Below are positions 1 through 37,496 of a DNA stretch of 64,000 nucleotides, piece by piece (positions within the stretch are counted from its first letter, which is position 1; each line of letters begins with the position of its first letter). Source of the DNA: an uncultured Gemmatimonadales bacterium (GTDB lineage: Bacteria > Gemmatimonadota > Gemmatimonadetes > Gemmatimonadales > GWC2-71-9); assembly GCA_947259405.1 (NCBI GenBank), contig CAMYLY010000009.1, positions 1-64,000 on the forward strand. Reading direction: 5' to 3'. The translations under genes and the position numbers were made by a program. The notes under the pieces are model-generated. The model ran no database searches. It was not told the DNA's origin and was given only the letters and a program-made list of their open reading frames with translations.

Positions 1-99
1 GTCGTTAATACGAGTGGTTGCCGTTGATATGAGTACCTTCACTGATGCGCGTGGCTGGCAAGCGTCGATGCGCGCAAGTCATTTGCAGGGACGTTAGGC
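1..99 (+). repeat. attC-like site, right part (cut by window start)
   Basis: The R' box GTTAGGC lies at 93-99, preceded by the right arm GCAAGTCATTTGCAGGGAC, which matches right arms of later sites (for example the one ending at 3436). The internal motif TTGATATGAG, found in several attC-like sites of this window, is at 24-33. The left half is outside the window, so the cassette array probably continues leftwards. Confidence 0.6.
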
Positions 100-149
100 G
101 GTGCCTGGGACCAGCCCTTTTCGGCGTGCGATAGGCTCGGTGAGACGCG

Positions 150-710
150 ATGATGAGGAAGGAATACCGTTGGGCCGTCCGTGAGCGCTTCTCACGTGGT
201 ATCGCTGAGCTTCTGCCCGGCTTCGTTCCTCGGAAGGTCCGATCCCAGCTGCTGTTCGGGGACGAAACCGTTTTCGCCTGGGAGGCGGGCCAAGGGTTAT
301 TGGTGTTCGTCCTGCTCGTACCCGATGCGAAGGGCCGACAATCTTTCACGGTGGAGCTCGGTTGGTCGGTCCACAACCGCTTTCCGGAGGGATCTATCCG
401 GCCGTCGATCATCCTCGGCCCCACCGAGGAGATTCCACCCGATCTTGAGGAGGCGATCATCCGCCTTGGGAGTCTCGTCTCACCAACTGATCTTTGGTGG
501 GATCTTCCCGATCCGGCGTTGGAGCGGCCAGGCGACTTAGAGGCGCTGCGCGCTGGTTTGGAGCCGATCGAGCGCGACATAGCGATCGCGCATGCGGAGG
601 CCGCCGTTTCTGCAGCTCTGGACACGCTCATGGAGAAGGGGCTGCCTCTCTTGGAATCCGTGGCAGCCGTTCACACCGGCCAAGAGGTGTCGCCGCGAGG
701 CGACGCCTAA
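150..710 (+). CDS. hypothetical cassette protein, 186 aa
   Basis: This is a soluble-looking acidic protein without signal peptide or membrane segment. I recognise no family. The middle (about residues 50-80) alternates hydrophobic beta-like stretches with charged turns, and the last third is helical and rich in Ala and Glu. The start is the first of two tandem ATG codons. It lies 50 bases after an attC R' box, and the TAA stop sits inside the R'' box of the next attC, which is the usual layout of an integron cassette gene. Confidence 0.7.
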   Translation: MMRKEYRWAVRERFSRGIAELLPGFVPRKVRSQLLFGDETVFAWEAGQGLLVFVLLVPDAKGRQSFTVELGWSVHNRFPEGSIRPSIILGPTEEIPPDLEEAIIRLGSLVSPTDLWWDLPDPALERPGDLEALRAGLEPIERDIAIAHAEAAVSAALDTLMEKGLPLLESVAAVHTGQEVSPRGDA

Positions 711-804
711 CAAGCAGTTGCTGCTGTCGCGGCACCCGTGAGGGTCGCGCGCTTCGCTTGCGGTTGGCATAGTGGTGCACAGCAGAACTGCAAATCCGTT
801 AGAC
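705..804 (+). repeat. integron attC-like recombination site
   Basis: R'' GCCTAAC is at 705-711 and R' GTTAGAC at 798-804. The inner arms are CAGTTGCTGCTG on the left and CAGCAGAACTG on the right; they pair almost perfectly with one unpaired base, as is typical of attC bottom-strand hairpins. The stop codon of the upstream gene is inside R''. Confidence 0.75.
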
Positions 805-870
805 CGACTGAGTTGTGGTTGTAGATGCGGCGCCATTTCACTTCTTGCACACCCTGTAGATGAGGTGGTC

Positions 871-1620
871 ATGCAAAATCCATTCTTCCACGGCGTCGGC
901 GGAGTTCTAAGCGCAGATATTGCGGTGCCGGACCATGAGCGGGAACTCGGTTTCTACTCGAAAGTTCTTACGACGGGACCGGCGCCGCTGTGGCGAGACG
1001 ATCTGACCAACAACCAAGGTACGCCGGTCATCGGCTTGGGGGCACGTTCACCTGAGTACGAAGCCCTCCCTCTGCAATGGATGCCGCACTTCCAGGTTTC
1101 CGATGTCGCCGCGAGCGCCGCGCGTACACTCGAACTCGGAGGCCAGGAGCTGATGCACGGCAAGGGCGACGACGGGCAAAGTCAATGGGCAGTTCTGGTT
1201 GACCCCACTGGCGCTGCGTTCGGCGTAATCCCTGTCGTTGTCGATGAATCAAACGGTGCAAGTCATCTCGATAGAATTGGTTGCATCTCTTGGCTCTCGC
1301 TCGTGGTCTCGGACGTTTCCTCGGCGTGCGAATTCTACGAACAAGTTATCGGATGGTCGGCGGCGTCTGCCGCCATCGAAGGTAGACGCGAAATGCGGCG
1401 ACCGGATGGTGTCGCCGCGGCGGAAATCTGCCCGATGAATGACGACACTGAGGGTATCCCTTCCGTCTGGTTACTTAGTCTGCCCGTCGACGACTTCGCG
1501 GAGAGTCTTAGACAAGTTCGCGAGGGCGGCGGTGAGATCGTTGGGGAGGTAACAGGGGCCGGACACGCCGTCATTCGGGACCCGGTCGGTGTCTACGTAG
1601 CGTTGCAGGCCAACACGTGA
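871..1620 (+). CDS. two-domain VOC (glyoxalase/bleomycin-resistance fold) protein
   Basis: The 249-residue protein holds two vicinal-oxygen-chelate modules, about residues 10-120 and 135-249. Each opens with the typical strand plus helix (DIAVPDHERELGFY; LVVSDVSSACEFYEQVIGW) and ends with a strand of the form DPTGAAFGV or DPVGVYVALQ. Such tandem VOC proteins are usually predicted lyases, dioxygenases or drug-binding proteins; the substrate cannot be read from sequence. An upstream start at 772 would overlap the attC, so the ATG at 871 is preferred. It is the second cassette-like gene in the window. Confidence 0.8.
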   Translation: MQNPFFHGVGGVLSADIAVPDHERELGFYSKVLTTGPAPLWRDDLTNNQGTPVIGLGARSPEYEALPLQWMPHFQVSDVAASAARTLELGGQELMHGKGDDGQSQWAVLVDPTGAAFGVIPVVVDESNGASHLDRIGCISWLSLVVSDVSSACEFYEQVIGWSAASAAIEGRREMRRPDGVAAAEICPMNDDTEGIPSVWLLSLPVDDFAESLRQVREGGGEIVGEVTGAGHAVIRDPVGVYVALQANT

Positions 1621-1707
1621 CGCGCAGCGGCCTAAGTTGAAGTGTCTCGTTGTCCGTACTGTTCGCGCTGCTTGATGCAACACCCTTCGGTGGTGCTTTC
1701 GGAGTAG

Positions 1708-2145
1708 ATGACGTTGCGATCACAACACTTCATGTCGGATCAGGCGCACGCCGCATCCTATGAGACCACCGCGCAGCGCTGGTTGTGGTGGCACAACCAG
1801 GTAGCGGTGCTCGTGTTGGTGGCCGTGGTAGTCCTGGCGTTGCTGGTAATGGACCACAGTGCATTCGCGGCCCGCTACGGGCCGTATGTAGGCCGGGTTT
1901 ACGGCGGGGCGATCGCTCTTGCTAGCGTCGAGGTGCTCCTGTGGCACTTCTTGTACCGCCATGGCGGGACTGAAGCGCGCTGGGCCGCCGGCCTGATGGG
2001 TGCGTGGTTTGGGATTCTCATTGTGATCCAACTTGCTCGTGCTTCAATCGATGTGCCGATCAGCGTTTGGAATCTCGTTGTCGGTGGATACATGGCCCTT
2101 TCGCATGTCGGTTATGCGTTCTTCGGAAGTCGAGCACGACATTGA
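1708..2145 (+). CDS. small integral membrane protein, about 4 TM
   Basis: The 145-residue protein has four hydrophobic segments, at roughly residues 27-48, 62-80, 90-108 and 117-137, and ends in a basic tail. No family is recognised. GGAG lies just before the ATG at 1708; an in-frame ATG at 1732 is an alternative start. A degenerate R''-like GGCCTAAG at 1629-1636 precedes it, so it may be a cassette gene whose upstream attC has decayed. Confidence 0.65.
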   Translation: MTLRSQHFMSDQAHAASYETTAQRWLWWHNQVAVLVLVAVVVLALLVMDHSAFAARYGPYVGRVYGGAIALASVEVLLWHFLYRHGGTEARWAAGLMGAWFGILIVIQLARASIDVPISVWNLVVGGYMALSHVGYAFFGSRARH

Positions 2146-2259
2146 TCCCGTTTGACGAGTGTTGTTGAGGTGAACGCGTGGCCAGTGGCGTTGATATGAG
2201 CGCACCTATAGATACGAATAGCTGGTCGGGGACCTGCACGCCTGCAGGCCGGGGACCTC

Positions 2260-2451
2260 GTGTCCCGACGAGTCGCGCTGGTGGGCGTTGGCGCGTGCGC
2301 GCTCACCGTCGTGGCGATGGGGTTGGTTGCCTTGGGCGTGGCTGACATGATGGTGGCAGCGCCAGTGGGCTTCGTCGCTCATGTCATGATCGGCTATCTC
2401 GGGGTCGTGATAGCTAGCCGAGGCGCGGGATCACTGATTCGCTCGGAGTGA
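2260..2451 (+). CDS. small membrane protein, 63 aa
   Basis: The 63-residue product has two hydrophobic helices (about residues 5-27 and 31-52) rich in Gly, Ala and Val, and a short charged tail. It starts at GTG and is followed 30 bases later by an attC-like site, consistent with a small cassette. The DNA just upstream (2146-2259) carries the TTGATATGAG motif at 2191-2200, a relic of another attC. Function is unknown. Confidence 0.5.
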   Translation: MSRRVALVGVGACALTVVAMGLVALGVADMMVAAPVGFVAHVMIGYLGVVIASRGAGSLIRSE

Positions 2452-2480
2452 GCCTCGTCGGACTCCACGCCCGCGGCTCT

Positions 2481-2577
2481 CTCTAACGGCGATTGCCACT
2501 GACGCGGCTTCGCGGGTAGGTACGCGCTTCGCGCTTGTGTCGGGAGGCCCGCGCAGCAGAATCGCGAGACGTTAGGC
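2481..2577 (+). repeat. integron attC-like recombination site
   Basis: R'' is CTCTAAC (2481-2487, one base off consensus) and R' is GTTAGGC (2571-2577). The inner arms GGCGATTGCC and CAGAATCGCGAG pair imperfectly. The next gene starts 35 bases after R'. Confidence 0.65.
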
Positions 2578-2611
2578 AGCACGACGACTTTCAGGAACTG
2601 ATGCCAGGCGT

Positions 2612-2977
2612 ATGATCAATCAACTCTTCGCGCTAATCGTGGACGAAAGCAAGTGGCTGACGGCGTCGATGGGCTTCGCGCTGCTGGCCGTCACCGTCCT
2701 GCTCTATCGGCACCGCCTTTCGAAACTCTCCACCCGACGTCGGGTTCTGGCAGCGATGAACCTGTTTTTCGGGGTGACAATCGGGACAATGGCTTTTGGC
2801 CACCTCCTAGCCGTGACTACCAAGCTCGCATTGACCACACTGGAAGGTTCTGTCCCCATGTTCTACCTGATTGGCATCGCCTTGGCCGTCCCCTCTTGGT
2901 GGCTCATCTATCACACCCGAGAGATATTGGTGTCCAGCAATGATCACGGGCGAGCGACGCTCGGTCTCAACGCGTGA
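2612..2977 (+). CDS. membrane protein, N-terminal part before an in-frame TGA
   Basis: The 121 codons encode at least three membrane helices (about residues 16-32, 51-70 and 80-98). A TGA at 2975-2977 stops the frame, but the same frame stays open for another 69 codons and encodes two more hydrophobic stretches. The context around the stop (GLNA, stop, LALSLLALG) is what would be expected if a TGG tryptophan codon mutated to TGA. The full product would be about 191 aa. It is either a recently inactivated cassette gene, a read-through gene, or a sequencing error. Confidence 0.6.
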   Translation: MINQLFALIVDESKWLTASMGFALLAVTVLLYRHRLSKLSTRRRVLAAMNLFFGVTIGTMAFGHLLAVTTKLALTTLEGSVPMFYLIGIALAVPSWWLIYHTREILVSSNDHGRATLGLNA

Positions 2978-3187
2978 TTGGCGCTGTCGCTGCTCGCACT
3001 GGGGATCCAGAACCTGCCGCTCGCCGCACCGGGTTTCCTTAACATCGGGTACCATCTGCATTCTGGCCGGGTCGCGGGTTGGGCAATTGTAGGCATCGCG
3101 GTCGTTGTTAATGTGGGCCTGTTCGTTGGATCGGTGATATTCCTCGCCAGCGGCCAAAACTTCGAGCAGTTCCGCGGGATTCAATAA
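2978..3187 (+). pseudogene. C-terminal continuation of the membrane protein after the in-frame TGA
   Basis: This is the in-frame continuation of the gene at 2612. It encodes hydrophobic segments at about residues 2-20 and 34-56 followed by a polar tail ending in FRGIQ. The TTG codon directly after TGA could restart translation, but no ribosome binding site is evident. It is best read with the upstream half as one 191-residue protein. Confidence 0.5.
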
Positions 3188-3289
3188 ACCGTAGGACCCT
3201 TGGCGACCCAAGACCGCACATCGAACTTTCGGTTAGGACGGACGGAGAAACTGTGAAGCAGCACTGCAATGACCTGAAGCCGCCGTGCT

Positions 3290-3436
3290 GCCTCACAGGC
3301 AAATGGACTTGACGAGCGCCCCCCGAATCTTGAGGAAGTCTTTGGTACGAGCGCCTGGCATTGATATGAATCCGTTCACCACAACATGCGCCTGGCCTGC
3401 GAGCACGCTCGCAAGTCATTTGCCGAGTCGTTGGGC
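3290..3436 (+). repeat. integron attC-like recombination site (long form)
   Basis: The R'' position is GCCTCAC (3290-3296, degenerate) and R' is GTTGGGC (3430-3436). The left arm GGCAAATGGACTTGACGAGC and right arm GCTCGCAAGTCATTTGCC are near-perfect complements. The internal TTGATATGAA motif is at 3361-3370. The site is about 147 bp, at the long end for attC. Confidence 0.7.
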
Positions 3437-3468
3437 GGCGCGGTGACACAGATGGGAGAGTACGGCGA

Positions 3469-4296
3469 GTGAAGATCGGACCGTGGGCCCTTGTCTTGGC
3501 GAGTCTATGGCTAGCCCGGCCCGCTTCGGCGCAGGGGGAGTGCAGGCTCGTCGCGTTGGACATGGGCGCCGTGCATACCTGCATCGCGGGCACAGGTCCG
3601 GTGACGGTCGTTCTGGCGGCCGGTGCTGGGCAGACGTCTCGGACGTGGGCTCCACTTCGATCTAGCCTGGCAGCTGGAGCACGCGTTGTGACGTTCGACC
3701 GACCAGGGTTGGGAGAGAGCCCACCGGGCGAGTCCCCCCGCACACCGACCCAAATCGCCCGAGAGCTTCGGGCCGTTATCGAGGCTCTGAATCTGGTCGG
3801 GCCGTTGGTGCTGGTCGGGCACTCCATGGGCGGAGTTCATGTACTTCGATACGCAACACTGTATCCTGAGCAGGTAGCTGGGGTCGTGATCTTAGATACC
3901 CCCCCGCCGCATTTCGAAGAGCGGCGCCTGGCCCTTCTCACCTCCGAGGAACGAGAAGCACGCCAACAGGCCCTACGGATCGGTCTTGAACGCAGTCCCG
4001 CAGCGGTCCGGCTCGAACGTGAGGGAGCCCAGTCACCTTCGGCATGGGACTTTACTGGCTTCCCTCACACGGCTCCGCTCGTTGTGATTGTGGCGGATTC
4101 TCAGGACTTCGGAGCCCTTGGTGAACAGGAGGCGCACCGACAGCTCTGGGTCGAGGAGTCGCGCGCGTGGCTGGACCTCTCGGAAAATGCCCGTCTGAGC
4201 ATCGCGGAGGGTAGTGGTCACATGGTGCACCACGATCGTCCCAGCATTGTGCTCAGTGTGGTCCGCGCGATGATGGCGCAGGGCGGGGATCGGTGA
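3469..4296 (+). CDS. secreted alpha/beta hydrolase
   Basis: The protein is 275 residues with a signal peptide cut near ARPASAQ (residue 22). The alpha/beta-hydrolase fold is shown by the nucleophile elbow GHSMGG (Ser119), the FDRPGLGES loop near residue 76, and a C-terminal histidine in GSGHMVHHD (about 251). An acid residue is likely in VIVADSQD. The family covers esterases, lipases and peptidases; the substrate is not predictable. It starts at GTG 33 bases after an attC R' and is followed by another attC, a clean cassette arrangement. Confidence 0.82.
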   Translation: MKIGPWALVLASLWLARPASAQGECRLVALDMGAVHTCIAGTGPVTVVLAAGAGQTSRTWAPLRSSLAAGARVVTFDRPGLGESPPGESPRTPTQIARELRAVIEALNLVGPLVLVGHSMGGVHVLRYATLYPEQVAGVVILDTPPPHFEERRLALLTSEEREARQQALRIGLERSPAAVRLEREGAQSPSAWDFTGFPHTAPLVVIVADSQDFGALGEQEAHRQLWVEESRAWLDLSENARLSIAEGSGHMVHHDRPSIVLSVVRAMMAQGGDR

Positions 4297-4312
4297 GGCT
4301 CATCGGTGCGCA

Positions 4313-4419
4313 GCCCAACAAGGAATTTGCTGCTGTCCGCGAAGGCTAATCGGCATCTCTGGTAACGCCTTGGTTTGCTAAGCGGGCGGGTGCGGCAGCA
4401 GAATTCCAGGACGTTGGGC
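4313..4419 (+). repeat. integron attC-like recombination site
   Basis: R'' GCCCAAC (4313-4319) and R' GTTGGGC (4413-4419) are exact complements and fit the consensus. The arms GGAATTTGCTGCTG and CAGCAGAATTCC pair with a small bulge. The site is 107 bp, lies 16 bases after the hydrolase stop and 30 bases before the next start. Confidence 0.82.
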
Positions 4420-4449
4420 CGCGGATCACATTCAGCAAAAGGGACTCTC

Positions 4450-4941
4450 ATGAGACTTCTGCCCCTCGCTCTCTTGATCTCAGGTACGGCATCGGGCGTG
4501 GCTGTTGCTCAGAACACTGGCTCCGTTGCGGTCGATTCGGCCGCGATCATGTCAGCCGTCGAGAACTGGGAGCGAGCGTGGCAGGTTCTTGACCCCGAGC
4601 TGGCGGTTCGTGACTACGCAGTTGACGCGGACTGGACCAACGCCTTCGGGATGCGCCGGCATGGACGAGACAGTATCCAGACGCTCGTGGCGGAGGTGTT
4701 TGAGCTCCCCTTTGTGGTTGCCGGCGAGACCACCTACGAGTACCACGACCTACAGTTCCTGACATCGTCGATCGCGCTACTGCGTAGTCGTGCCATCCGA
4801 GTGGGACAACAGCTGCCGAGCGGGGAGGTGGAGGAACCGCGGCGGACGAATCACCTTCGGGTCTTCGTCAAGCGTGATGGGCAATGGCTCATCCGGAGTC
4901 ACTTGATTGGGGACGAACGAACCCCTGGTCGGCCACGTTGA
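4450..4941 (+). CDS. secreted SnoaL/DUF4440-like (NTF2-fold) protein
   Basis: The 163-residue protein has a signal peptide (cut after GVAVAQ) followed by an NTF2-like cone fold: a helical start with VENWERAWQVLDPELAVRDYAVDADW, then strands with HDLQFL and LRVFVKRDGQWLIRSHLI. Members bind small molecules or act as isomerases or cyclases; many secreted ones have no assigned role. The ATG at 4450 is chosen because it begins the signal peptide and lies just after the attC R'. It is one of four NTF2-like proteins in the array. Confidence 0.75.
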   Translation: MRLLPLALLISGTASGVAVAQNTGSVAVDSAAIMSAVENWERAWQVLDPELAVRDYAVDADWTNAFGMRRHGRDSIQTLVAEVFELPFVVAGETTYEYHDLQFLTSSIALLRSRAIRVGQQLPSGEVEEPRRTNHLRVFVKRDGQWLIRSHLIGDERTPGRPR

Positions 4942-4956
4942 GAGCCGAGATCCGCT

Positions 4957-5092
4957 GCCTAACAGGCGTTAGGAGCTGACGGGCGCGGCGGGTGGCGTTG
5001 ATATGAGCGCCCTGATAGATACGAGTAGGTCCAGCTGAGAGGGCGCGCCTGGCCGGGTGGTCGCCCGCCGCTCAAACGCAGAGCCGTTAGGC
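4957..5092 (+). repeat. integron attC-like recombination site (long form)
   Basis: R'' GCCTAAC (4957-4963) and R' GTTAGGC (5086-5092) are perfect complements. The left arm GCGTTAGGAGCTGACGGGCG pairs with CGCCCGCCGCTCAAACGC on the right. The internal TTGATATGAGCGC motif starts at 4999. The same arm family is used by the site at 18289-18433. Confidence 0.82.
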
Positions 5093-5120
5093 GGCAGGAC
5101 GTACGCGGGGCAGATCTACC

Positions 5121-5498
5121 ATGGCCAATTTGAACGCCTCAGACATCAAGACTTTCGTCGGGTCGAAGATCTTCGATGAGTCACGAGATTTTTATGTTGC
5201 GATGGGATGGAAGCTGAACTTCGATGCTGGCGACCTTGCGGAACTCGAGTTGGGAGGCTGCCGCTTTTATTTGCAGGCTTACTATCAGCGGCAGTGGTGC
5301 GAGAACTGCATGCTGCACATAACCGTGGAGGACGCGGAGGCCTGGTACAGGCACGCCTTAGCTGTTTTAGAAGCGAGATCGTACGGAGCGGCGCGCGCCC
5401 AAGCACCCCGGAAACAGCGTTATGGGGCTCTGGTCACCCATGTCTGGGATCCAGCCGGCGTCCTGTTGCACTTTGCCCAGCCTCTCGGAGAAACATAG
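5121..5498 (+). CDS. VOC (glyoxalase-fold) family protein
   Basis: The 125-residue protein has the VOC pattern: an opening IKTFVGSKIFDESRDFYVAMGW, a central strand ELGGCRFYLQ, and a closing strand VTHVWDPAGVLLHFAQP. This single-module length is normal for dimeric VOC proteins. Whether it acts on a metabolite or binds a drug cannot be told from sequence. It begins 29 bases after an attC R' and ends 37 bases before the next attC. Confidence 0.75.
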   Translation: MANLNASDIKTFVGSKIFDESRDFYVAMGWKLNFDAGDLAELELGGCRFYLQAYYQRQWCENCMLHITVEDAEAWYRHALAVLEARSYGAARAQAPRKQRYGALVTHVWDPAGVLLHFAQPLGET

Positions 5499-5534
5499 TG
5501 CGCATGCCAACTCCACCGGCTACTGGTTGCTGCC

Positions 5535-5679
5535 GGTTAACAGGCAAATGCACCTGCCGGGGCGCGTACGTTGATTAAGGAATACAGCCTTTATGCGCAA
5601 GCCGGCGATTGTGCACGTTTAAGTCAACCATAGCAGCCTGCGGCGGGTCGCCCGCAGGTGATTTGCAGGGACGGTAGGC
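5535..5679 (+). repeat. integron attC-like site with altered core boxes
   Basis: The R'' position reads GGTTAAC (5535-5541) and R' reads GGTAGGC (5673-5679), each off consensus, so recombination activity may be lost. The arms GGCAAATGCACCTGCCGG and CCGCAGGTGATTTGC still pair well. Bases 5601-5643 are identical to 19906-19948, a shared internal block. Confidence 0.65.
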
Positions 5680-5706
5680 GGCGCAGGAGTCAGGGGAAGA
5701 GAAGCT

Positions 5707-6699
5707 GTGGCAACATCTTGCAGATCATGGTGGCGTAATTGTGCCCTGGAAGCTGATTCCGAGATTCTGGCCATCGACAGGATGGAGGAACATGTCGCCC
5801 CCGTCGGTCCAGACGTATCGAGGGTGCGCGAGCTCATTTCGAGTCTCGAATTGTGCCATCACAAAGCCGATCGATGGGTCTACAACATCATTGCGGCAAT
5901 CGGTGCAGGAGAAACGCCAAAGGGGCTAGGCACACGTTCGCCTGTTCAGCAACACCCTGCCGAACAAGTGTGGCAAAATGCCTGCGCGTCCCTCTCGGCG
6001 TGGTGTGCGGGATGTCCAAGCACAAAGGTCGATTTGTCTATCGACACCGTTCCAGCTTCTCGACTCCTTGCTTGCCTTGGGGATCGCTCACCGTTGAAGG
6101 AGTGGCAGGTCCAGAGGGTGATTGAGAAAGTCCGAAGTGCAATCCATTGGCCGCAATCCTGTAACGATCCAACGGCACAGTACGTGTGGATTCTCCTGAA
6201 CGAAGACGAATATGATGTTGCTTACCGCAACCGGTGCCCCGAACACTACAAGGAACACGAAGATTTCTGGCTGGCAACGGTTCGGACCATCATTCATGAC
6301 ACTGAGAATGGCGATAAGGCAGATCTTTCGTTGGGCCTCGCCATCGACATGCTTATGCCCTGCCACTGGAGGTTTGTGGAGAATCTCGGGATTGTTCTTG
6401 AGGCGATTGGTGGGAAGCTGAATCCGGAGAAGCCGTTTGCAGCGTGTGGCAGGAACATAACCCTGCTACCGATTCGCCGCCGGATGGAAATTGTGTCCAA
6501 CACTCTGAATGCCTTCTGCAACGACGCGGCGTCAAACGAGGAGGTGGACAGGGATCTACTCGAGTTGCTTGGAAAGCCAACGCAAGCGAAAAAGTGGCTT
6601 GCCGCTTCCTTGGAGAAGACAATAGGGCTTCAGTTGAACCCGCCGGCCGAACTACGGGCGATGTCTGCCCTGGCCGGGCCTGACTGGATAAGGCAATGA
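5707..6699 (+). CDS. orphan hypothetical protein, 330 aa
   Basis: I do not recognise this family. The protein is soluble, mostly alpha-helical by composition, unusually rich in Trp and Cys for its surroundings (for example SAWCAGC, CHWRFVENLG), with no signal peptide. AGGGGA lies 9 bases before the GTG start; an in-frame ATG at 5782 is a possible internal start. Its codon use is less GC-biased than its neighbours, hinting at a different donor. It lies between two attC-like sites and is the largest cassette in the first 9 kb. Confidence 0.65.
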   Translation: MATSCRSWWRNCALEADSEILAIDRMEEHVAPVGPDVSRVRELISSLELCHHKADRWVYNIIAAIGAGETPKGLGTRSPVQQHPAEQVWQNACASLSAWCAGCPSTKVDLSIDTVPASRLLACLGDRSPLKEWQVQRVIEKVRSAIHWPQSCNDPTAQYVWILLNEDEYDVAYRNRCPEHYKEHEDFWLATVRTIIHDTENGDKADLSLGLAIDMLMPCHWRFVENLGIVLEAIGGKLNPEKPFAACGRNITLLPIRRRMEIVSNTLNAFCNDAASNEEVDRDLLELLGKPTQAKKWLAASLEKTIGLQLNPPAELRAMSALAGPDWIRQ

Positions 6700-6789
6700 G
6701 GATCCTCGGAAGCGCTCCAGAACCTCCTGTTCATGGTGTCCGTGGCATTGATCGTCTCTACGGTGGCACGTGCCTGGCGAATGAGCGCC

Positions 6790-6921
6790 GCCTAACAGGC
6801 AAATGAAGCTGCCGAACGCTGGGGGGCAATCGGTTTGATTGCATGGTGAACACACCGTGGACAAAACCTTTCAAGGTGCTGGAGAGCTTGCGTTCGCAGC
6901 TTGTTTGCAGGGTCGTTGGGA
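6790..6921 (+). repeat. integron attC-like recombination site
   Basis: R'' GCCTAAC is at 6790-6796; R' is GTTGGGA (6915-6921, last base off consensus). The arms GGCAAATGAAGCTGCCGAACGC and GCGTTCGCAGCTTGTTTGC are long near-perfect complements. The neighbouring gene starts 65 bases downstream. Confidence 0.75.
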
Positions 6922-6985
6922 AGCGGCCCGCGTGGGCAGCATCATAACATCACGCCCCAAGGAGCATTGGCCTCCGAGGATCTGT

Positions 6986-27028: not shown

Positions 27029-27073
27029 CCGCGGACCGCGGACGCACGGGATCGTAGTACGCGAGGAATTCTC

Positions 27074-29836: not shown

Positions 29837-29928
29837 TCCAGCCGTTTTGGGACCTAGAGTGGCAACCCTGCGGCGGGTGACGCCGCAACCTCACGGTCGG
29901 TCGCCGCGCACGACGCCGCACCCGGCCG

Positions 29929-29954
29929 GCAGAATCAGCAGACGTGCGTTAGAC
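29929..29954 (+). repeat. attC-like right half
   Basis: The arm GGCAGAATCAGCAGACG is followed by GTTAGAC (29948-29954). On the minus strand this is GTCTAAC and contains the TAA stop of the membrane protein gene, so it fits an R'' box of a reversed cassette equally well. The rest of 29516-29948 holds only the heptad-repeat ORF. Confidence 0.5.
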
Positions 29955-30686: not shown

Positions 30687-32093
30687 TCACTGCCTCCTAA
30701 GAATCATGTGCGCGCCCGGCATACTAAACCGTAGCTCCGTCACCTCTCCACTGTCGCCGTTCGCTCGGCGGAAGATGAACCGCGGGAGTCCGGCGCCGAA
30801 CGTCAAACCCTCGATCCAGGGGATCGGACGCGACGGCCTACCGTCGATGGAGAAGGCGGGTCCCTGCGGTGTCTCCGTCACCTCGACGACCATCTCTTCA
30901 CCCCGTCCCGGCCCGACATACCGGCCTACGAGCGGTGCGGGGTCGCCGGTGAATCGCTTGGGCGGCGGCGGCGTCCGGCCAAGCACCTCGTTGGCGAGGT
31001 TGGTCACCACTTCCTGCGGATCGAGCGGGCCGACGTTGTTGATCATGACGACGACCCCCATCTGCGCCTCCGGATACCAACCCACCTCGACCCAGAAGCC
31101 AGGGGCCCTGCCGCCGTGGCCGATGTACATGAGGCCGCTGGGGTCCGGACCCACCTGAAGGCCCATGCCATAACGGAGCGGCGTCCCATCGTTCAGCCTT
31201 CCGGGCGCGATGAACTCCGTGTAGGACGCGGGTGAAAGTACGCGGCCGCCGTGGAGGGCCTGGAGCCAGGTGACCATATCGCCCACGCTCGAGCACAGCG
31301 AACCGGCGGCGAAGGGCCAGGTATGCCAGATAGTCCACGCGCGGCGGATGACACTGTCGCGCGTGACGAAGTAGCCATGCGCGCGGCGCGGGATGTTCTC
31401 CTCGCTGTGGCAGTACATCGACCGCGTCATGCCCAGCGGTTCGAAGATGTGCTGCTCGATGTAGTCCTCGTACGTCATCCCGCTCGCCTTTTCGATGACG
31501 AGCCCCAGGAGCCAGAACCCCGCGTTGTTGTAGATCTGCATCCCGCCCGGCGCGAACTGCGGAGGTTGCCGCTGTTGCAGTGCATACGCGGAATCGCGGG
31601 GGAAGCGGATGTTCGTCGACAGGCTGCCGAACTCCCGCGCCTCCGTGAAGTCGCCGATCCCTGCCGTGTGCGCGAGCAGGTGGCGCAGCGTCACCGCGTG
31701 ACCGTGTGTGTCGAAGTCGGGGAGCCACTCGGTGATGTCGTCGTCCAGGCTGAGCTTCCCCTCGTCGCGGAGCTGGAGCACGGCCGCGCCAGTGAACTGC
31801 TTGGTGACCGAGCCGATCACGAACATGGCATCGAGCGGCATCGGGACGTCCCACTCGACGTCGGCCCGGCCATAGGATTTGTGGAGTAGCGTTTCGTCGC
31901 CTTTGACCACCGCCGCGACGATGCCGACGGCGTAGTTCCTCTGGACCCAGTGCCCGGCGATGGAATCGAGCCGCTGGGCGAGGGCTGAGTCCGTTTGCGC
32001 GGCCGCTTGGGTGGCCGCGATGGAGACGAGGGCAACGGTGCCGAGGAAGAAGCGGAGACCGGGCCGCGCGAGCGCGGGATGAAGGAGCGACAC
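30687..32093 (-). CDS. secreted serine hydrolase, beta-lactamase/DD-peptidase fold
   Basis: The 468-residue protein has a signal peptide (cut near TQAAAQ) and the class C-type penicillin-binding fold: SVTK with nucleophile Ser95, YNN at 188-190 and HGG at 326-328. A C-terminal domain of about 110 residues (from PPPPKRFTG, with LVGRYVG) resembles the lipocalin-like extension common in these hydrolases. Likely substrates are peptides or esters; true beta-lactamase activity is not implied. The GTG at 32093 follows AAGGAG. It forms an operon with the downstream membrane protein. Confidence 0.85.
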   Translation of the reverse strand: MSLLHPALARPGLRFFLGTVALVSIAATQAAAQTDSALAQRLDSIAGHWVQRNYAVGIVAAVVKGDETLLHKSYGRADVEWDVPMPLDAMFVIGSVTKQFTGAAVLQLRDEGKLSLDDDITEWLPDFDTHGHAVTLRHLLAHTAGIGDFTEAREFGSLSTNIRFPRDSAYALQQRQPPQFAPGGMQIYNNAGFWLLGLVIEKASGMTYEDYIEQHIFEPLGMTRSMYCHSEENIPRRAHGYFVTRDSVIRRAWTIWHTWPFAAGSLCSSVGDMVTWLQALHGGRVLSPASYTEFIAPGRLNDGTPLRYGMGLQVGPDPSGLMYIGHGGRAPGFWVEVGWYPEAQMGVVVMINNVGPLDPQEVVTNLANEVLGRTPPPPKRFTGDPAPLVGRYVGPGRGEEMVVEVTETPQGPAFSIDGRPSRPIPWIEGLTFGAGLPRFIFRRANGDSGEVTELRFSMPGAHMILRRQ

Positions 32094-32125
32094 GGGATTG
32101 AACTCCTTGACAAGGCAGCTGTATG

Positions 32126-32138
32126 AGTACAGAGTACT
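32126..32138. promoter_or_regulatory. candidate operator palindrome upstream of the serine hydrolase
   Basis: AGTAC-AGA-GTACT is a perfect inverted repeat 33 bases upstream of the GTG start on the minus strand, in the region where the promoter should lie. AT-rich DNA follows. A repressor binding here could control the hydrolase and membrane protein pair; the regulator is not identified. Confidence 0.35.
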
Positions 32139-32159
32139 TTGTAACGCAAAGCTTAGCAA

Positions 32160-32595
32160 CCCTGGCCTAGGAGCCGCTGCTCGGCCGCGGTGCGATCACA
32201 AGATCCTCGGCACAGGTATACAATCGCCATCCTGCCACGACCCAGCTCCCGCTCGATGGCGTAGCGGTCGGAGAGAGCTTAGCTGAGACGATCGCTGATA
32301 TCAGTCACCGGTACCACCCAACGTTATTCCGGCGTTGAAACGCCGGCTCGGCGCTGCGCGACGCGTTCTGAAGAACGTCGTCACCGAGTTGCCCTTCAGC
32401 GCACGTCGGCGCGAAAGCGCCCCCGAGCCTGGCTTTCAGGTCAGGAACATCGACTGATGGCTACTTGTCGGTGGAGTCTAAGGTCGTCGGCGAGGGCGGT
32501 CTTGAGGCGAGCAACGGTATCGCTCATGAGATCCTAACCTAGGCTCCAATCGTTCTGTTGGCGAGACGAAGGAAGATGTAGCGGGGGAGCAGGGA
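32160..32595. other. gene-free stretch with one hairpin
   Basis: I see no gene between the serine hydrolase promoter and the end of the AAA ATPase gene. A compact hairpin, CCGGCGTT-GA-AACGCCGG, is at 32329-32346; it has no T-run. The region may be a decayed cassette. Confidence 0.45.
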
Positions 32596-33750
32596 TCAGA
32601 CGATTTCTCCCCTCCACAGTCGTTTCACAAAGGCCTTGGCTGGTAGGATTTCGATGCCGTCATCCGTCTTACGTGACTTGCGTTCGCTGCAGACTACTAT
32701 TCGCCGAGCCACACGTGGATGATCCACTGCCAGGCTACGCAGTCCCTTGAGATGGTCCCGCGTGATCTTCGCGCTCGACTTCGCTTCTATCGCCGCCTCC
32801 ATATCGCCCAACACGAAGTCCACCTCAATGCCACTGGCAAGTCGCCAGTATGATAGAGCCGTGTCGTGCCCGCGGTAGCTCCCATAGGCTGTGAGCTCGT
32901 GGAACACCCAGTTCTCGAACGCCTTGCCATAGAGCTCGGAACCGGGTTGCAGCTCCCCCCGCCGCGCCAACCGATTCACGACCCCGACATCGACGAAGTA
33001 GAACTTGGGCGCACCGATGACGCGGCGTTTGGGTCGTTTGCGGTACGCCGGCAGCCACCTCCCGAGCAGCGTGTCTTCCAGAATCTCAAAGTGGTTCTTG
33101 GTCGTGTGGCTCGACACACCGCACTCGCGGGCGAGGTTGGAGAAGTTGACGATCTCACAATCACTGAGCGCCGCAACATCCAGGAAGTCTGAGAACGTCG
33201 GGAGATTGCGCACCAGCCCTTCGGCGGCGACTTCCTCCTTCAGGTAACCGGCGATGTACGCATCGAGCAATCGCTTTGGCCGATTCGACTCATAGATGCG
33301 TGGCAGGTAGCCATGATTCAACATCCGATCGAGAGCGAAGTCGCCGCCGAGCTCGGCCGCTGTCAGTCCATGCAACTCATAGCGCACGGCGCGACCGCCC
33401 AACAGATTGGCGGCGCCACGTTTCACCTTGCGGGCGCTCGAGCCGCAAAGTGCGAAGTGAAGGCCGCGATTCTCCAGCAGCCAATGCACTTCATCTAGCA
33501 GCGCGGGGACCTTCTGAATCTCGTCAATGACAATCTGACGCCCAGGATCGAGTGGTTCTGCCTCGATCTCCTGACGCAGCAGCTCGGGCCGAGCCACGTA
33601 ACGGCGGAACTCCTCCGCCTTTAAGAGATCCACCCAACGGGCGTCACCGTAGGTCTGCCTCAACAGGGTAGTCTTACCAGTCTGCCGAGGACCCCAGAGG
33701 AAAAAGGTCTCGACTCCTGACGCCGGGAGGACCAAGCTCCGATTGAACAT
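32596..33750 (-). CDS. AAA_14/DUF4143 family ATPase
   Basis: The 384-residue protein has Walker A GPRQTGKTT (residues 20-28) and Walker B QIVIDEIQKVP (about 72-82), followed by a winged-helix segment (ARECGVSSHTTKNHFEIL) and a C-terminal DUF4143 domain with a nuclease-like pattern GIEVDFVLGDMEAAIEAKSS. This is the usual order and length of the family, which spreads horizontally and whose role is unsettled. Start MFNRS is chosen because a promoter overlaps it directly. It seems inserted into an older VOC gene, whose C-terminal remnant lies on its upstream side. Confidence 0.85.
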   Translation of the reverse strand: MFNRSLVLPASGVETFFLWGPRQTGKTTLLRQTYGDARWVDLLKAEEFRRYVARPELLRQEIEAEPLDPGRQIVIDEIQKVPALLDEVHWLLENRGLHFALCGSSARKVKRGAANLLGGRAVRYELHGLTAAELGGDFALDRMLNHGYLPRIYESNRPKRLLDAYIAGYLKEEVAAEGLVRNLPTFSDFLDVAALSDCEIVNFSNLARECGVSSHTTKNHFEILEDTLLGRWLPAYRKRPKRRVIGAPKFYFVDVGVVNRLARRGELQPGSELYGKAFENWVFHELTAYGSYRGHDTALSYWRLASGIEVDFVLGDMEAAIEAKSSAKITRDHLKGLRSLAVDHPRVARRIVVCSERKSRKTDDGIEILPAKAFVKRLWRGEIV

Positions 33751-33785
33751 GTAGTTCAATATATCATGATAACTTGAACCGTCAA
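33743..33785 (-). promoter_or_regulatory. leaderless promoter with two palindromes at the DUF4143 gene
   Basis: On the minus strand TTGACG (33785-33780) and TATATT (33763-33758) form -35 and -10 boxes 16 bases apart. The -10 ends only eight bases before the ATG, so the transcript would start at or next to the start codon. Two palindromes overlap the promoter: TATCATGATA (33762-33771) and TTGAAC-N5-GTTCAA (33743-33759), the second covering the start codon. Autoregulation by the winged-helix domain of the ATPase is a reasonable guess. Confidence 0.55.
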
Positions 33786-33814
33786 CTCGTATTGGGGGAA
33801 AGGGCCACGACTCC

Positions 33815-34027
33815 TGGGTACCCGAGCACAAGCCTGGCGTCGGCGTATCGATCTGTTTCATATGCCGCGACGCGGTGGCCCTCTATCGCGAGTTCATCGC
33901 TCGCGGCGTTGCGGTGAAGCGCCCCTTTGTTGGCAACGGCATGTGGGTGGCTTCTCTCGAGGATCCGGACGGCTACGAGCTGCAGAGCCCGACGGACGCG
34001 CCGGAAGAGAGCCAGTACGAGGAGTAA
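33815..34027 (+). pseudogene. C-terminal remnant of a VOC-family gene
   Basis: The open frame encodes GVGVSICFICRDAVALYREF followed by VKRPFVGNGMWVASLEDPDGYELQ and an acidic tail, stopping at TAA 34025-34027. This is the last half of a VOC protein; the N-terminal half is absent. Its 5' edge abuts the promoter of the DUF4143 gene, so insertion of that gene may have truncated it. It is followed 49 bases later by an R'' box, as for a cassette. Confidence 0.6.
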
Positions 34028-34076
34028 AAGCTGGACTGGCCTTGGTGCCCACCATATCGCTCTTGACTTGCGTGCA

Positions 34077-34137
34077 GCCTAACACCGGCCGATTGTGAGC
34101 AGACTGTTCCGATCTTTGCACACGCGTTTCGTTGACC
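34077..34137 (+). repeat. attC-like site (61 bp)
   Basis: R'' GCCTAAC is at 34077-34083. GTTGACC at 34131-34137 takes the R' position (off consensus). Spacing equals the classic 60-bp element, but arm pairing (CGGCCGATTGTG against CACACGCGTTTCG) is poor. Confidence 0.5.
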
Positions 34138-34149
34138 ATGAGGACAGCC

Positions 34150-34632
34150 ATGAACCGTTTAGGCATTGTCGTGCACACCGTGCTGTTGCTCTCCCTGACA
34201 CTAGACAGTGTCCAAGCCCAAGGAACACTCATGACTCAAACCGCAAAAGGAACATTTGTCGTCTCCTTGCAGCCCATGGCGTTTGAAGGTGTCGACCCCG
34301 AGGTCAAGCTTGGCCGAATGTCAATTGACAAACAGATCTCCGGCGACCTCACAGCGCGCACAAACGGTCAGATGCTCAGCGCCATGACACGCACCGATGG
34401 GTCCGCCGGCTACGTGGCAATCGAGTGGGTGGCCGGTACGCTAAACGGAAAGCGAGGGACTTTCGTGCTGCAACACTCGGGCACCATGAACCGCGGGGTA
34501 CCGTCCCTGTCGGTGACCGTCGTGCCGGACTCGGGCACTGAGGAATTGGTCGGACTCGAAGGCGAGTTCAAGATCAACATCGTAGACGGTGAACACTATT
34601 ATGAGTTTACCTATCGGTTGCCTGCACCGTGA
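34150..34632 (+). CDS. secreted DUF3224 family protein
   Basis: The 160-residue protein has a signal peptide (cut after SVQAQ) and a DUF3224 barrel-like domain: GTFVVSLQPMAF, LGRMSIDKQISGDLTARTNGQML, GYVAIEWVAGTLNGKRGTF, VLQHSGTMNRG and VVPDSGTEELVGLEGEFKI. DUF3224 proteins are usually cytoplasmic and shorter, so the signal peptide is notable. Function is unknown. TGAGGA precedes the ATG at 34150; an in-frame ATG at 34138 is also possible. Confidence 0.75.
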   Translation: MNRLGIVVHTVLLLSLTLDSVQAQGTLMTQTAKGTFVVSLQPMAFEGVDPEVKLGRMSIDKQISGDLTARTNGQMLSAMTRTDGSAGYVAIEWVAGTLNGKRGTFVLQHSGTMNRGVPSLSVTVVPDSGTEELVGLEGEFKINIVDGEHYYEFTYRLPAP

Positions 34633-34704
34633 AGAGCGTGTGGTACTGCCCACGGTACGGCGGAGTCGAGCAGGGACTTTGACAGGTTGCATGAACCGGC
34701 TGTT

Positions 34705-34770
34705 GCCTAGCAAGCGCCGGCGGCGGACAGTCCGCTGCCCGGCCCATAGGTGACGCGCAAGTCGTAGGGC
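34705..34770 (+). repeat. attC-like site, degenerate (66 bp)
   Basis: GCCTAGC (34705-34711) and GTAGGGC (34764-34770) take the R'' and R' positions, each one or two bases off consensus. Arms AAGCGCCGG and GACGCGCAAG pair partly. The acetyltransferase gene starts within 25 bases. Confidence 0.5.
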
Positions 34771-34792
34771 AGACTTGTGGATGAGAGGAGCG

Positions 34793-35284
34793 ATGCGAGA
34801 AATCCACCTCGACGCCTTCGATCAGAGCCTGCATTCCGACAGACTCCGCGGCTGGCTGCGCCGACCGCACGTTGCCAGGTGGTGGGGAGACGCGCAACAG
34901 GCGATGGCACACGCGGTGCAGTGCCGTCCGGACGCGCACGCGGTCATCGTCGTAGACGGAACGCCCGTAGGCTATCTCTGCTGGCAGACACCAAGTCCGG
35001 TGGAGCTTGCGGATGCCCGCCTCACTGACCTGCCGGAGGGGTTGGTGGATATCGACATCCTCATAGGCGAGCCGGAACTGCTTGGCCAGGGAGTTGGTTC
35101 GCAGGCCCTCAAGCTGCTGCTAGCCCAATTGCACACGGAGTCGTCGTTCGCATACGCCGGCTTGGGTATGTCGGTGTCGAACGTACGTGCCATCCGGGCC
35201 TGTGAGCGAGCGGGGTTTCGTCTGTTTCGGGAGTTCCAGCATCCGGAATGGGGTCAATGCCGGTACATGGTGGCAGATGTGTGA
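34793..35284 (+). CDS. GNAT acetyltransferase, AAC(6')-like
   Basis: The protein is about 163 residues from the ATG at 34793 (or 167 from 34781). It resembles the aminoglycoside 6'-N-acetyltransferase type of GNAT: an early LRRPHVARWWGD block, DIDILIGEPELLGQGVGSQA as the acetyl-CoA loop, and MSVSNVRAIRACERAGFRL near the end. The same order of motifs occurs in AAC(6')-Ib. Without alignment the substrate is uncertain; related enzymes also act on siderophores or peptides. The location between attC-like sites mirrors clinical resistance cassettes. Confidence 0.72.
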   Translation: MREIHLDAFDQSLHSDRLRGWLRRPHVARWWGDAQQAMAHAVQCRPDAHAVIVVDGTPVGYLCWQTPSPVELADARLTDLPEGLVDIDILIGEPELLGQGVGSQALKLLLAQLHTESSFAYAGLGMSVSNVRAIRACERAGFRLFREFQHPEWGQCRYMVADV

Positions 35285-35810
35285 GGCGTCGCGACATTCC
35301 CTGCGCATTGGCGCCCCAGCGCTGGTCGGACTGCTTGGTGCGGGATGCTGCGACGACTGCGATGGCTTCTTTGGCGAAACCTGGATCGTCGTCGATGCGA
35401 CCACCGTTAACGGGGCGTCCGTCTCGGATGTCACGATTCGCGCCGATAGGCTGAGGACCATGGAGGGGTGGACGGACACGACGCGTGCAAACGGGCGGGC
35501 GGTTCTCCATCTTTTCACGGCGAATTTCCCCGACTCCGTACGGGTATCGGCTGACCCGCCGGCGGAGTTCACGATTCCTGAGTCCGTGGCCGTGAGGGCA
35601 GTCTATGGGGATTCCGTGACTGTTGTGTTCACTCTCGAACCGCTGACCAGTATGGCCGGCTGGGTTACTTGGTTCTTTTGGCGGTCGGCTACGGCTGGTC
35701 CGAGTGAGTCCGTGCGGGCTTATGCGCTTTGCGTATGCAAGGTGATAGCGCCGCAGCTGAGGCGCAGAGCCGTTCGCCAGTCCAAAGGTGGCATCCATCA
35801 AATCGCGTGA
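35277..35810 (+). CDS. lipoprotein whose C-terminus reads into an attC remnant
   Basis: The 177-codon frame overlaps the GNAT stop by eight bases. It encodes a lipoprotein signal (VGLLGAGCC), then an Ig/carboxypeptidase-regulatory-like beta domain (VVDATTVNGASVSDVTIRAD, GRAVLHLFTANFPDSVRV, VYGDSVTVVFTLEPL). The last 45 or so residues are basic and low in structure, and their DNA contains an attC right arm with a mutated R' box (35772-35778). The original stop was probably lost, so the tail is an accidental extension. Confidence 0.5.
   Translation: MCEASRHSLRIGAPALVGLLGAGCCDDCDGFFGETWIVVDATTVNGASVSDVTIRADRLRTMEGWTDTTRANGRAVLHLFTANFPDSVRVSADPPAEFTIPESVAVRAVYGDSVTVVFTLEPLTSMAGWVTWFFWRSATAGPSESVRAYALCVCKVIAPQLRRRAVRQSKGGIHQIA
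35753..35778 (+). repeat. attC-like right half inside a coding frame
   Basis: GCAGCTGAGGCGCAGAGCC followed by GTTCGCC (35772-35778) matches the right arm GCTCAAACGCAGAGCC plus GTTAGGC of the site ending at 5092. The R' box has two changes. It lies ten bases before the GTG start of the acyltransferase gene. Confidence 0.5.
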
Positions 35811-36606
35811 CAGGCCTTTCCGATTAGACCCTATTCCCCGGTATCGGCGTTTCTCCATCGATGCCGGACGCCTCGGGCGTCGGAAACATGTCATCCACGG
35901 TCTCATAGAAGTCGATGTCACCGACGCCAGGCGCGTCTTTCGTGCTTACCATGCCAAGACTGGAGAGAGGCCTTCCCTCACCGCTTTCATAATCTCTTGC
36001 CTCGCCAGGGCCATCGAATCCAACGATCACCTTCACGCCTACAAGGATTGGCGCAACCGTCTTGTGATCTATGACGACGTCAATATCAACGTTCTTCTCG
36101 AAGGAACCATCGATGGAGTGACGGCACCGGTCCCACATCTCCTCAAGGGCGTCAACAAGAAGAGTTATCTCGACATCCACGCAGAAATTCGCAGTGCCCA
36201 AGCGAGTCCGAAGGACACACCAGAGGCCGGGTTCATGCGGTGGTTCTTATGGCTGCCATGGATCCTCCGGCGACCCTTCTACTGGTTTGCCCTGAGGGTG
36301 CCCCGGCTCTCTCGCGAGATCTCAACCCCAGTCTTGGTGACGGCAGTTGGGATGTTTGGCAGAGGACCCGGTTGGGGAATACCCATGGCGAATTTCACTC
36401 TCACGGTGACGCTCGGTGGCATCTCAGAGAAGCCCGCAGTGGTGAACGGAGAAATCACGCCACGAGAGCTCTTGGACATGACGATCTCTATCGACCACGA
36501 CGTTGTCGATGGGGCACCCGCGGCACGGTTCGTCGGCCGCTTCCGCCAGTTGATCGAAGCGTCCGACGGACTTGATGAATTGCTTTCGGCGGTGCAACCC
36601 ACTTGA
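35788..36606 (+). CDS. 2-oxoacid dehydrogenase acyltransferase-like (CAT-fold) protein
   Basis: The 272-residue protein is a free-standing catalytic domain of the E2/chloramphenicol-acetyltransferase superfamily. The active-site motif appears as SIDHDVVDGAPAARFV (about residues 232-247; family form HxxxDG). Strands GIPMANFTLTVTLGGI and KPAVVNGEITPRELLDM precede it. There is no lipoyl or subunit-binding domain, so it is not a normal E2 subunit. It could be an acyltransferase of unknown acceptor, possibly detoxifying. GTG start after an attC remnant; a full attC-like site follows. Confidence 0.75.
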   Translation: MASIKSRDRPFRLDPIPRYRRFSIDAGRLGRRKHVIHGLIEVDVTDARRVFRAYHAKTGERPSLTAFIISCLARAIESNDHLHAYKDWRNRLVIYDDVNINVLLEGTIDGVTAPVPHLLKGVNKKSYLDIHAEIRSAQASPKDTPEAGFMRWFLWLPWILRRPFYWFALRVPRLSREISTPVLVTAVGMFGRGPGWGIPMANFTLTVTLGGISEKPAVVNGEITPRELLDMTISIDHDVVDGAPAARFVGRFRQLIEASDGLDELLSAVQPT

Positions 36607-36623
36607 GGCGCGCCAATGAGGCC

Positions 36624-36712
36624 CGCTAACAACTTGCTGGAGCGGCCGCAGCCTCAGCGCGCTACCATGTCTGGCGCAGCTCTGCTGCACCGCTCAGCTC
36701 CGGCCGTTAGGC
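36624..36712 (+). repeat. integron attC-like recombination site
   Basis: R' GTTAGGC (36706-36712) is intact; the R'' position reads CGCTAAC (36624-36630, two bases off). Inner arms TGGAGCGG and CCGCTCAGCTCCGG pair. The next gene starts 26 bases after R'. Confidence 0.65.
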
Positions 36713-36737
36713 GCCAGCACCATCGACGCACCATTGG

Positions 36738-37427
36738 ATGAAGATGTCAGGCATCGGATTGCTGAATGAAAAACCACTGCACGCATCACTGAAGGCGTGG
36801 TGCGCACAACCGGGCGATCGATTTGAAGTGGCCGTTGATGGGTTTGTGATTGATATTGCCCGAGATGGTCTATTGCTAGAAATCCAGACCGGCAGTTTCG
36901 CGTCCATCAAGTCGAAGCTGACAACTCTGGTGCGTTCACATCAGGTACGATTGATATACCCGATAGCGTGCGAGAAATGGATTGTCAAACTGGCAAAGGC
37001 TGACGGTAGCGGTGGAGTCACACGCCGTAAGTCGCCCAAGCGAGGACGGGAGGAGGATCTGTTCTGGGAAATGGTGAGTTTTCCACGGTTGCTGGCGAAC
37101 CGCAACTTCTCGATAGCAGTATTGATGATTCGGGAAGAAGAGGTGAGACGGTATGAAGGGAAGCGGCAATGGCGAAGGAGAGGGTGGGTGACTGAGGAAC
37201 GCCGGCTGGTGGAGGTCGTAGATCAGCGGTTGTTTGAGGAGCCGGCAGATTGGCTCGCGTTTCTTCCAGAGGGGCTGGAGTCATTTACGGCGAGCGAGCT
37301 GGCGGAAGCGATAGCGGTACGGAAAGAACTGGCACAGAAGATAGCATATTGTCTACGAAAAGCAGACGTAATTCAGTTGGTTGGTAAGCAGGGACGAGCC
37401 AACCTGTACAGAGTGGCTCGCGCCTAA
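36738..37427 (+). CDS. possible nuclease-fold protein with C-terminal winged helix
   Basis: The 229-residue protein starts MSGIGLLNEKPLHASLKAW and contains FVIDIARDGLLLEIQTGSF followed by SIKSKLTTLV, a D-x(n)-E-x-Q / K arrangement like a PD-(D/E)xK nuclease core (about residues 38-60). The C-terminal 55 residues (SFTASELAEAIAVRKELAQK, then RKADVIQLVG and ANLYRVA) look like a winged helix. A basic middle (TRRKSPKRGREE) may contact nucleic acid. I recall similar proteins in other bacteria but no known function. Its base composition is less GC-rich than its neighbours. The stop is within an R'' box. Confidence 0.65.
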   Translation: MKMSGIGLLNEKPLHASLKAWCAQPGDRFEVAVDGFVIDIARDGLLLEIQTGSFASIKSKLTTLVRSHQVRLIYPIACEKWIVKLAKADGSGGVTRRKSPKRGREEDLFWEMVSFPRLLANRNFSIAVLMIREEEVRRYEGKRQWRRRGWVTEERRLVEVVDQRLFEEPADWLAFLPEGLESFTASELAEAIAVRKELAQKIAYCLRKADVIQLVGKQGRANLYRVARA

Positions 37428-37496
37428 CACAGTTTTCGGGCTCCTTTGTCAGATGAGTCGGAAGTCGTTCCGGCGGCGGAATGCCGAAGCGCATCA
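37422..37496 (+). repeat. last attC-like site of the array (R' decayed)
   Basis: R'' GCCTAAC (37422-37428) includes the TAA stop of the preceding gene. The right arm GGCGGCGGAATGCCGAAGCG resembles other right arms (GGCAGAATTCC) but is followed by GCATCAG instead of an R' box. No cassette-like site was found after this point. Confidence 0.5.

Follow-up and report, generated by a model that had tools for sequence, protein, structure and literature searches.

A cassette array at a contig end in a Gemmatimonadales draft genome, and the integron integrase that probably belongs to it

Gemmatirosa kalamazoonesis, which we take to be a gemmatimonad, carries an integron that can be set beside the locus described here, a row of gene cassettes and attC sites in the first 37 kb of contig C9 of a draft genome from an uncultured Gemmatimonadales bacterium (G000; 3.06 Mb, 29 contigs, 61% complete). 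The window that we analyzed comprises bases 1–64,000 of this contig. As described in a passage of the IntegronFinder 2.0 paper (PMC9024848), the integron of strain KBS708 resembles ours in being large, with more than ten attC sites, and differs in its reported location, a very large second replicon of 1.1 Mb; the two are likened by description. The initial annotation of the window expected a cassette array in this phylum to extend the known range, an expectation that is not supported, since Gemmatimonadota stand among the phyla listed with integrons in PMC8618304 and their integrons are thus already in print (PMC8618304, PMC9024848). Beyond these two papers, a literature search on integrons in the phylum returned no title treating Gemmatimonadota integrons, and a search on inverted integrases, Rhodopirellula and dispersed attC sites found no papers.

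An inverted layout has been described for Treponema (PMC3607928), whose chromosomal integrons, as presented there, are like ours in this layout and in having a chromosomal array; they belong to another phylum and have other attC sequences, and our layout is pieced together from an intI gene and an array on separate contigs. Archaeal integrons are described with attI immediately downstream of intI, as we propose here, in another domain of life (PMC9668308), and the same study calls the many clusters of attC sites lacking an integrase (CALINs) expected, given the fragmented metagenome-assembled genomes. Taken alone, contig C9 is like the CALIN elements described in PMC9024848 and PMC8618304, being an attC cluster without an integrase, but our genome has an intact integrase, IntI, at the end of another contig. 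Integrons split between contigs have been reported in Klebsiella drafts (PMC9024848). The locus is probably an ordinary integron split by assembly; the system is a known one, in a bacterial group that has been little studied.

The window array is a real integron cassette array, as the initial annotation had it, because three lines of evidence agree: covariation within the sites, matches to a model from other genomes, and the geometry of attC relative to intI in related genomes. In an attC site the outer boxes R″ and R′ pair, followed by the inner arms L″ and L′, with an unpaired spacer. Two covariance models were used: R1, from ten hand-picked window sites (alignment A4), and R2, from 21 sites beside integrases of other genomes, those sites having been picked by R1. 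The sites are as follows, with scores in bits and expectation values (E).

1–99, plus strand: 3′ part of an attC site truncated by the contig start; R1 24.9 bits, E 7.4e-4; 70% identity to site 3290–3436; untrained in R1
705–804, plus strand: attC site; R1 72.9 bits, R2 58.8 bits, E 8e-13
2481–2577, plus strand: attC site; R1 64.4 bits, R2 48.9 bits
3290–3436, plus strand: attC site, long type; R1 81.9 bits, R2 45.5 bits
4313–4419, plus strand: attC site; R1 69.3 bits, R2 45.2 bits
4957–5092, plus strand: attC site, long type; R1 86 bits, R2 55.3 bits; bottom-strand fold z −2.93
5535–5679, plus strand: attC site, long type; R1 74.2 bits, R2 53.5 bits
6790–6921, plus strand: attC site, long type; R1 72.9 bits, R2 38.7 bits; bottom-strand fold z −3.38
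15885–15980, plus strand: decayed attC site outside R1 training; R1 36.8 bits, R2 27.5 bits, E 1.4e-4; fold no better than shuffles
16397–16415, plus strand: mini-site, R″ and R′ without inner arms; pattern match, 0 in 100 Markov-1 controls
18289–18433, plus strand: attC site, long type; R1 84.6 bits, R2 42.3 bits
19124–19171, plus strand: left half of an attC site; 81% identity to the left end of site 3290
19883–19998, plus strand: degenerate attC site, right half; R1 E 0.38 only; 19906–19957 has 94% identity to 5601–5652 inside site 5535
20278–20338, plus strand: short attC site with weak inner arms; R1 29.8 bits, R2 E 0.059
21699–21716, plus strand: mini-site, perfect R″–R′ palindrome; sole exact pattern match in the genome, 0 in 100 Markov controls
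22259–22317, plus strand: middle of an attC site, ends gone; 80% identity to 3311–3369
36624–36712, plus strand: last recognizable complete attC site; R1 42.7 bits, R2 25.8 bits, E 4e-4
About 26490, 29950, 34708–34772 and 37422: remnants recognized by eye only

Eleven sites are complete, with both outer boxes (some with 1–2 bases altered) and, in most, inner arms that pair; a one-base bulge lies on the L″ side of seven of them, so several sites combine R″/R′ and L″/L′ pairing with extrahelical bases. Of the about fifteen sites initially counted, these 11 and the one cut by the contig start stand, and the others are remnants only. The window contains the motif GCCTAAC 17 times, where 3.39 would be expected (10 at most in 100 shuffles), always within 93–37428, and the segments next to these boxes turn up repeatedly as related copies. 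When the ten-site alignment was read with attC pairing, 85.8% of the paired cells could pair, as opposed to 73.5% in shuffles, and 11 pairs had changed on both sides, giving 25 such cells versus 8.2 in shuffles. On four of five measures covariation was higher than in any of 500 shuffles, the fifth being reached by 12 of the 500, and slid controls were all far lower than the true attC structure; the structure was drawn from the same sequences, which favors it. R1 gave 12 window matches below E 1e-3, all on the plus strand between 1 and 36712 and ten of them by construction, followed by weak matches (E 0.38 to 2.2) at 19883 and 22256 (plus) and 43643 and 40517 (minus). R2 found 11 sites at E ≤0.059, all on the plus strand between 705 and 36712, with no further match in the window up to E 1, the part beyond 36712 included.

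The array looks decayed towards its far end. Its first 7.9 kb consist of one-strand cassettes with seven complete attC sites plus the cut one, and beyond this point attC sites are sparse, halved or reduced to R″–R′ palindromes; neither model found a complete attC site in the stretches 7.9–15.8 kb and 23.3–34 kb. The R2 score drops with distance from the start of C9 (rho −0.83, p 0.002, n=11). The mini R″–R′ palindromes lie between genes and are apparently attC sites stripped of everything between the outer boxes; among relatives, G010 has one exact parallel, on a contig (C118) with attC matches of its own. As a family-wide trait the palindromes did not hold up, with exact matches in 3 of 61 genomes, below the reversed-pattern control. 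A strict pattern of R″…R′ pairs proved too strict, its eight plus-strand matches containing four true sites.

The third line of evidence comes from the surroundings of integrases in other genomes. With R1, all 21 matches (E ≤0.03) in 29 loci around other integrases lay downstream of intI on the same strand. R2 gave 34 matches in 10 of 34 loci (9 genomes): 31 were downstream on the strand of intI, of which 21 are its training sites, so that it adds 10 such sites to the 21 of R1, and the remaining three were reverse-strand readings of palindromic sites already counted. The other 24 loci had no R2 match; many end just behind intI, but those of G019 and CP070823 do not. None of the 10 same-order loci (9 genomes) with attC beside intI has the classical layout. 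Across 80 loci of named genomes from many phyla, 45 matches in 23 loci fell into two arrangements only: downstream on the same strand (30 matches, 13 loci) and upstream on the opposite strand (15 matches, 10 loci). In a 101-row IntI tree our protein falls in a 47-row group that comprises 19 inverted rows and not one classical row; six classical and two inverted rows lie elsewhere in the tree. The group has a support value (SH-like approximate likelihood ratio test, SH-aLRT) of 93 on a short branch of 0.016, is not starred, and stems from a quick method with midpoint root. The tree leaves out six of 111 loci with partial or stop-bearing genes (L077, L078, L122, L139, L142, L150) and five second stretches of genomes already included; L142 and L150 are classical, so it holds six of the eight loci labelled classical. 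Loci with matches weaker than E 0.01 (L098, L102, L116, L128) were left unlabelled.

The integrase of our genome is encoded by bases 414–1391 of contig C6 on the minus strand, 413 bases from the contig start, which its 3′ end faces. As judged by a score of 416 bits on TIGR02249 (our criterion for IntI; cut-off 265 bits) it is an intact integron integrase, and the sole protein of the genome over that cut-off; on the narrower NF011946 it stays below the cut-off (326.6 vs 435). Its best solved relative is IntI4 (2a3v), with an alignment through residues 14–321 and recombinase motifs that align with those of IntI4, so the genome has a tyrosine recombinase with the IntI-specific domain, on a contig other than that of the array. 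A second PF00589 match, on contig C4, is far below the IntI cut-off. The profile search of the genome's contigs found no integrase on C9, in line with the absence from the window noted initially, and the search of the remaining genome that had been proposed yielded this single intact IntI.

Between intI and the start of C6 lie a candidate attI core (C6:213–224, minus strand), about 190 bases past the intI stop codon and one base off GTTRRRY, and a hicA-like toxin gene (HicA_toxin, 70.8 bits) that is truncated at the contig start and points towards intI. GTTRRRY boxes occur in 13 of the 22 relatives' flanks inspected, two of which are very short. The hicA-like gene would fit a reversed first cassette. 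The segment C6:215–330, picked by eye as an attC site, matched neither R1 (E up to 10) nor R2 (E up to 1), and may be part of attI.

We then considered whether C6 and C9 are neighbors, which is suggested by the fact that C6 breaks behind intI and that, with 150 of 1524 candidates scored, no contig end in the genome other than the start of C9 (1–99) was seen to carry an attC. All 22 fragmented assemblies examined, ours included, have their nearest contig end 3′ of intI, and in 12 of them it is within 613 bases; assemblies therefore tend to break where the array begins. For this count one best IntI was taken per genome, in 25 of the 29 with an IntI over the cut-off; three whole chromosomes were set apart and second IntI copies excluded. 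On the 5′ side of intI, two adjacent C6 genes recur in G050 (68 and 48% identity) and one in G005 (65%). Based on (i) the downstream layout in relatives, (ii) the breaks on the 3′ side and (iii) the grouping of our IntI with inverted integrases, C6 and C9 probably abut and the window array is probably that of the genome's own IntI. The initial classification as a CALIN without an integrase is then probably wrong, and the missing integrase an assembly artefact: C9 has a cluster of at least two attC sites and no IntI, but an intact intI gene lies at one end of C6, its 3′ side turned to the gap.

In our preferred reading, which we consider likely, the first 37 kb are the cassette array of a chromosomal integron, decayed distally, with intI likely just upstream, beyond an assembly gap. 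This would be the inverted-integrase layout, in which intI is followed by attI just past its 3′ end and by cassettes read in the direction of intI. IntI would bind the folded bottom strand of attC, in which the R″/R′ and L″/L′ arms pair, and circular cassettes would be recombined into attI at the near end of the array. Older cassettes would be displaced outward, losing their attC sites, and now and then an insertion off target may leave solitary cassettes, such as those on contigs C7 and C13.

Several observations weigh against this reading. R2 is not wholly independent of R1, which chose its training sites. Bottom-strand folding reached z −2 or below against shuffles in just 6 of 11 sites, so that of the at least ten folding attC matches anticipated, the matches were obtained (11 with R2, 10 at E 4e-4 or better) and the folding in part. 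The trend of the R1 score with distance was not significant (rho −0.34, p 0.31). A looser list contains a weak R1 match upstream of intI (L058:7669, E 0.04), and in G055 a second IntI, which is not among the 22, sits in mid-contig, its 5′ side being the one closer to a contig end. The join of C6 and C9 rests on indirect support and not on reads, nothing in the synteny comparison ties C9 genes to intI in relatives, and at 61% completeness other contigs may lie between C6 and C9, or take the place of either. Whole chromosomes with the array beside intI number only two, G043 and G058. The other observations of this kind speak for a true CALIN, an array far from intI, either an off-target nursery or a separated array, that would be served in trans. 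In the whole chromosome of G019, whose IntI is closest to ours (71%), 15 attC matches are scattered and none is beside intI; that of CP070823 has five in four places, again none beside intI; G058 has a second attC cluster about 350 kb from its intI; solitary attC sites occur in our own genome (C7 and C13); and the ends of C6 and C9 share no overlap. Set against these are the two contig breaks, both of which fit the inverted layout in direction and position, the 3′-side breaks in all 22 fragmented assemblies, and the higher R2 scores near the contig start. We regard a true CALIN as unlikely, with an appreciable chance nonetheless of being correct.

A classical divergent integron, with its intI on a contig missing from the assembly, is conceivable in a genome of such low completeness, but the same-order loci with attC beside intI lack that layout throughout and an intact IntI is already present, which makes it very improbable. 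That the sites are dispersed palindromic repeats unrelated to integrons has next to no likelihood, given their extended attC structure with covariation, their fixed geometry to intI in other genomes and the position of the next start codon 16–66 bases past R′ (below), and even though the genome has related sites in a few further spots.

Between the sites, cassettes mostly hold a single gene and point in one direction. At all 13 junctions considered, those after 16415 and 19998 being omitted and the starts chosen by eye, the next start codon is 16–66 bases past R′, which agrees with the initially noted range of about 15–65. Stop codons inside R″, said to occur in several sites, are few: one each at 705 and 37422, with another in a degenerate box close to position 7892. 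The genes are mostly on one strand, as first noted: seven of 38 hand-chosen open reading frames of the array (150–37427) are on the minus strand, all beyond 7.9 kb. Over the Pfam cut-off were 26 of 39 window proteins chosen by eye (38 from the array and one just beyond), 13 remaining without a match, and among the families are glyoxalase-like, DUF4440, alpha/beta hydrolase, methyltransferase, GNAT and DUF1428 proteins. By Pfam, its parts contain the following.

150–7897, plus strand: near end of the array, with nine genes on the same strand, among them glyoxalase-like, alpha/beta hydrolase, DUF4440 and sulfatase-modifying-factor-like, five without a match over the cut-off
14885–23335, plus strand: further part, with DUF1428, aspartyl protease-like, methyltransferase, two DUF4440, GGACT, Bact_hydrolase (PF20603) and other genes, and one reversed hemerythrin-like gene
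25213–37427, plus strand: far end, with mixed-strand genes, attC remnants and one complete attC site

A block without attC sites at 9874–14270 has neighboring amidohydrolase genes (1001 and 465 amino acids), with 70–73% identical DNA pieces 1448 bases apart. At 32596–33861 lies a gene for an AAA_14/DUF4143 protein that matches the PADLOC candidate family PDC-S01; a PADLOC scan of ten array proteins gave no match besides it. A 21-base tandem repeat around GAAGCTTC is found in the array (C9 26294–26367 and 29715–29788), upstream of intI (C6:1558–1832) and near the start of C7 (C7:1090–1302). As a part of the integron this repeat was rejected: only the window and our own C6 loci reach three matches among the loci compared, and with a one-mismatch pattern there is no excess over the control in the genome.

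Outside the array, three R1 attC matches were found in the genome (150 of 1524 candidates scored), together with an attC remnant on C12, which is not the genome-wide scatter that a dispersed palindrome family, named initially as the refuting outcome, would have given. Two of the matches, C7 28310–28415 and 29117–29180 (minus strand; L068 10000–10870), flank one reversed gene and by eye form a single cassette, and the third, C13 63735–63905 (L067 10000–10170), is a lone attC among other genes. In the family sample of 61 genomes, in which ours is the sole member of its genus, attC sites were detected in 49 genomes and in 33 of the 35 good ones (E ≤0.01; 62 candidates scored per genome), and IntI over the cut-off in 29, ours included. 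In the phylum, 113 of 200 genomes and 112 of 199 good ones had attC sites (E ≤0.001; 19 candidates scored). Both prevalences were counted with a model from the group's own sites.

This commonness of attC sites in the phylum (112/199 good genomes) is the fresh point of the analysis. Together with the 33/35 in the family, it contrasts with a survey of complete genomes that places 93% of complete integrons in gamma-Proteobacteria, as given in PMC9024848, and Gemmatimonadota are therefore a place to study integrons outside pathogens. Our wider proposal is tentative, and we lean slightly to doubting it: Gemmatimonadota would be a stronghold of inverted-integrase integrons, with attC near-universal in the family, IntI acting genome-wide, scattered small clusters, and the integrase sometimes alone. 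The inverted layout also sets a trap in draft genomes, in that an integron broken behind intI would be scored as two things, an integrase lacking cassettes and a CALIN.

Beyond the array, dnaX occupies 56572–58368, with a small signal recognition particle (SRP) RNA at its 5′ end; in an Rfam scan of the window this RNA alone reached the threshold. The window DnaX shares 49% identity with its counterpart in CP070823, which is a Gemmatimonadota record; the values are 49% and 57% (the second over part) for two same-class genomes and 40% for one genome sharing the phylum only.

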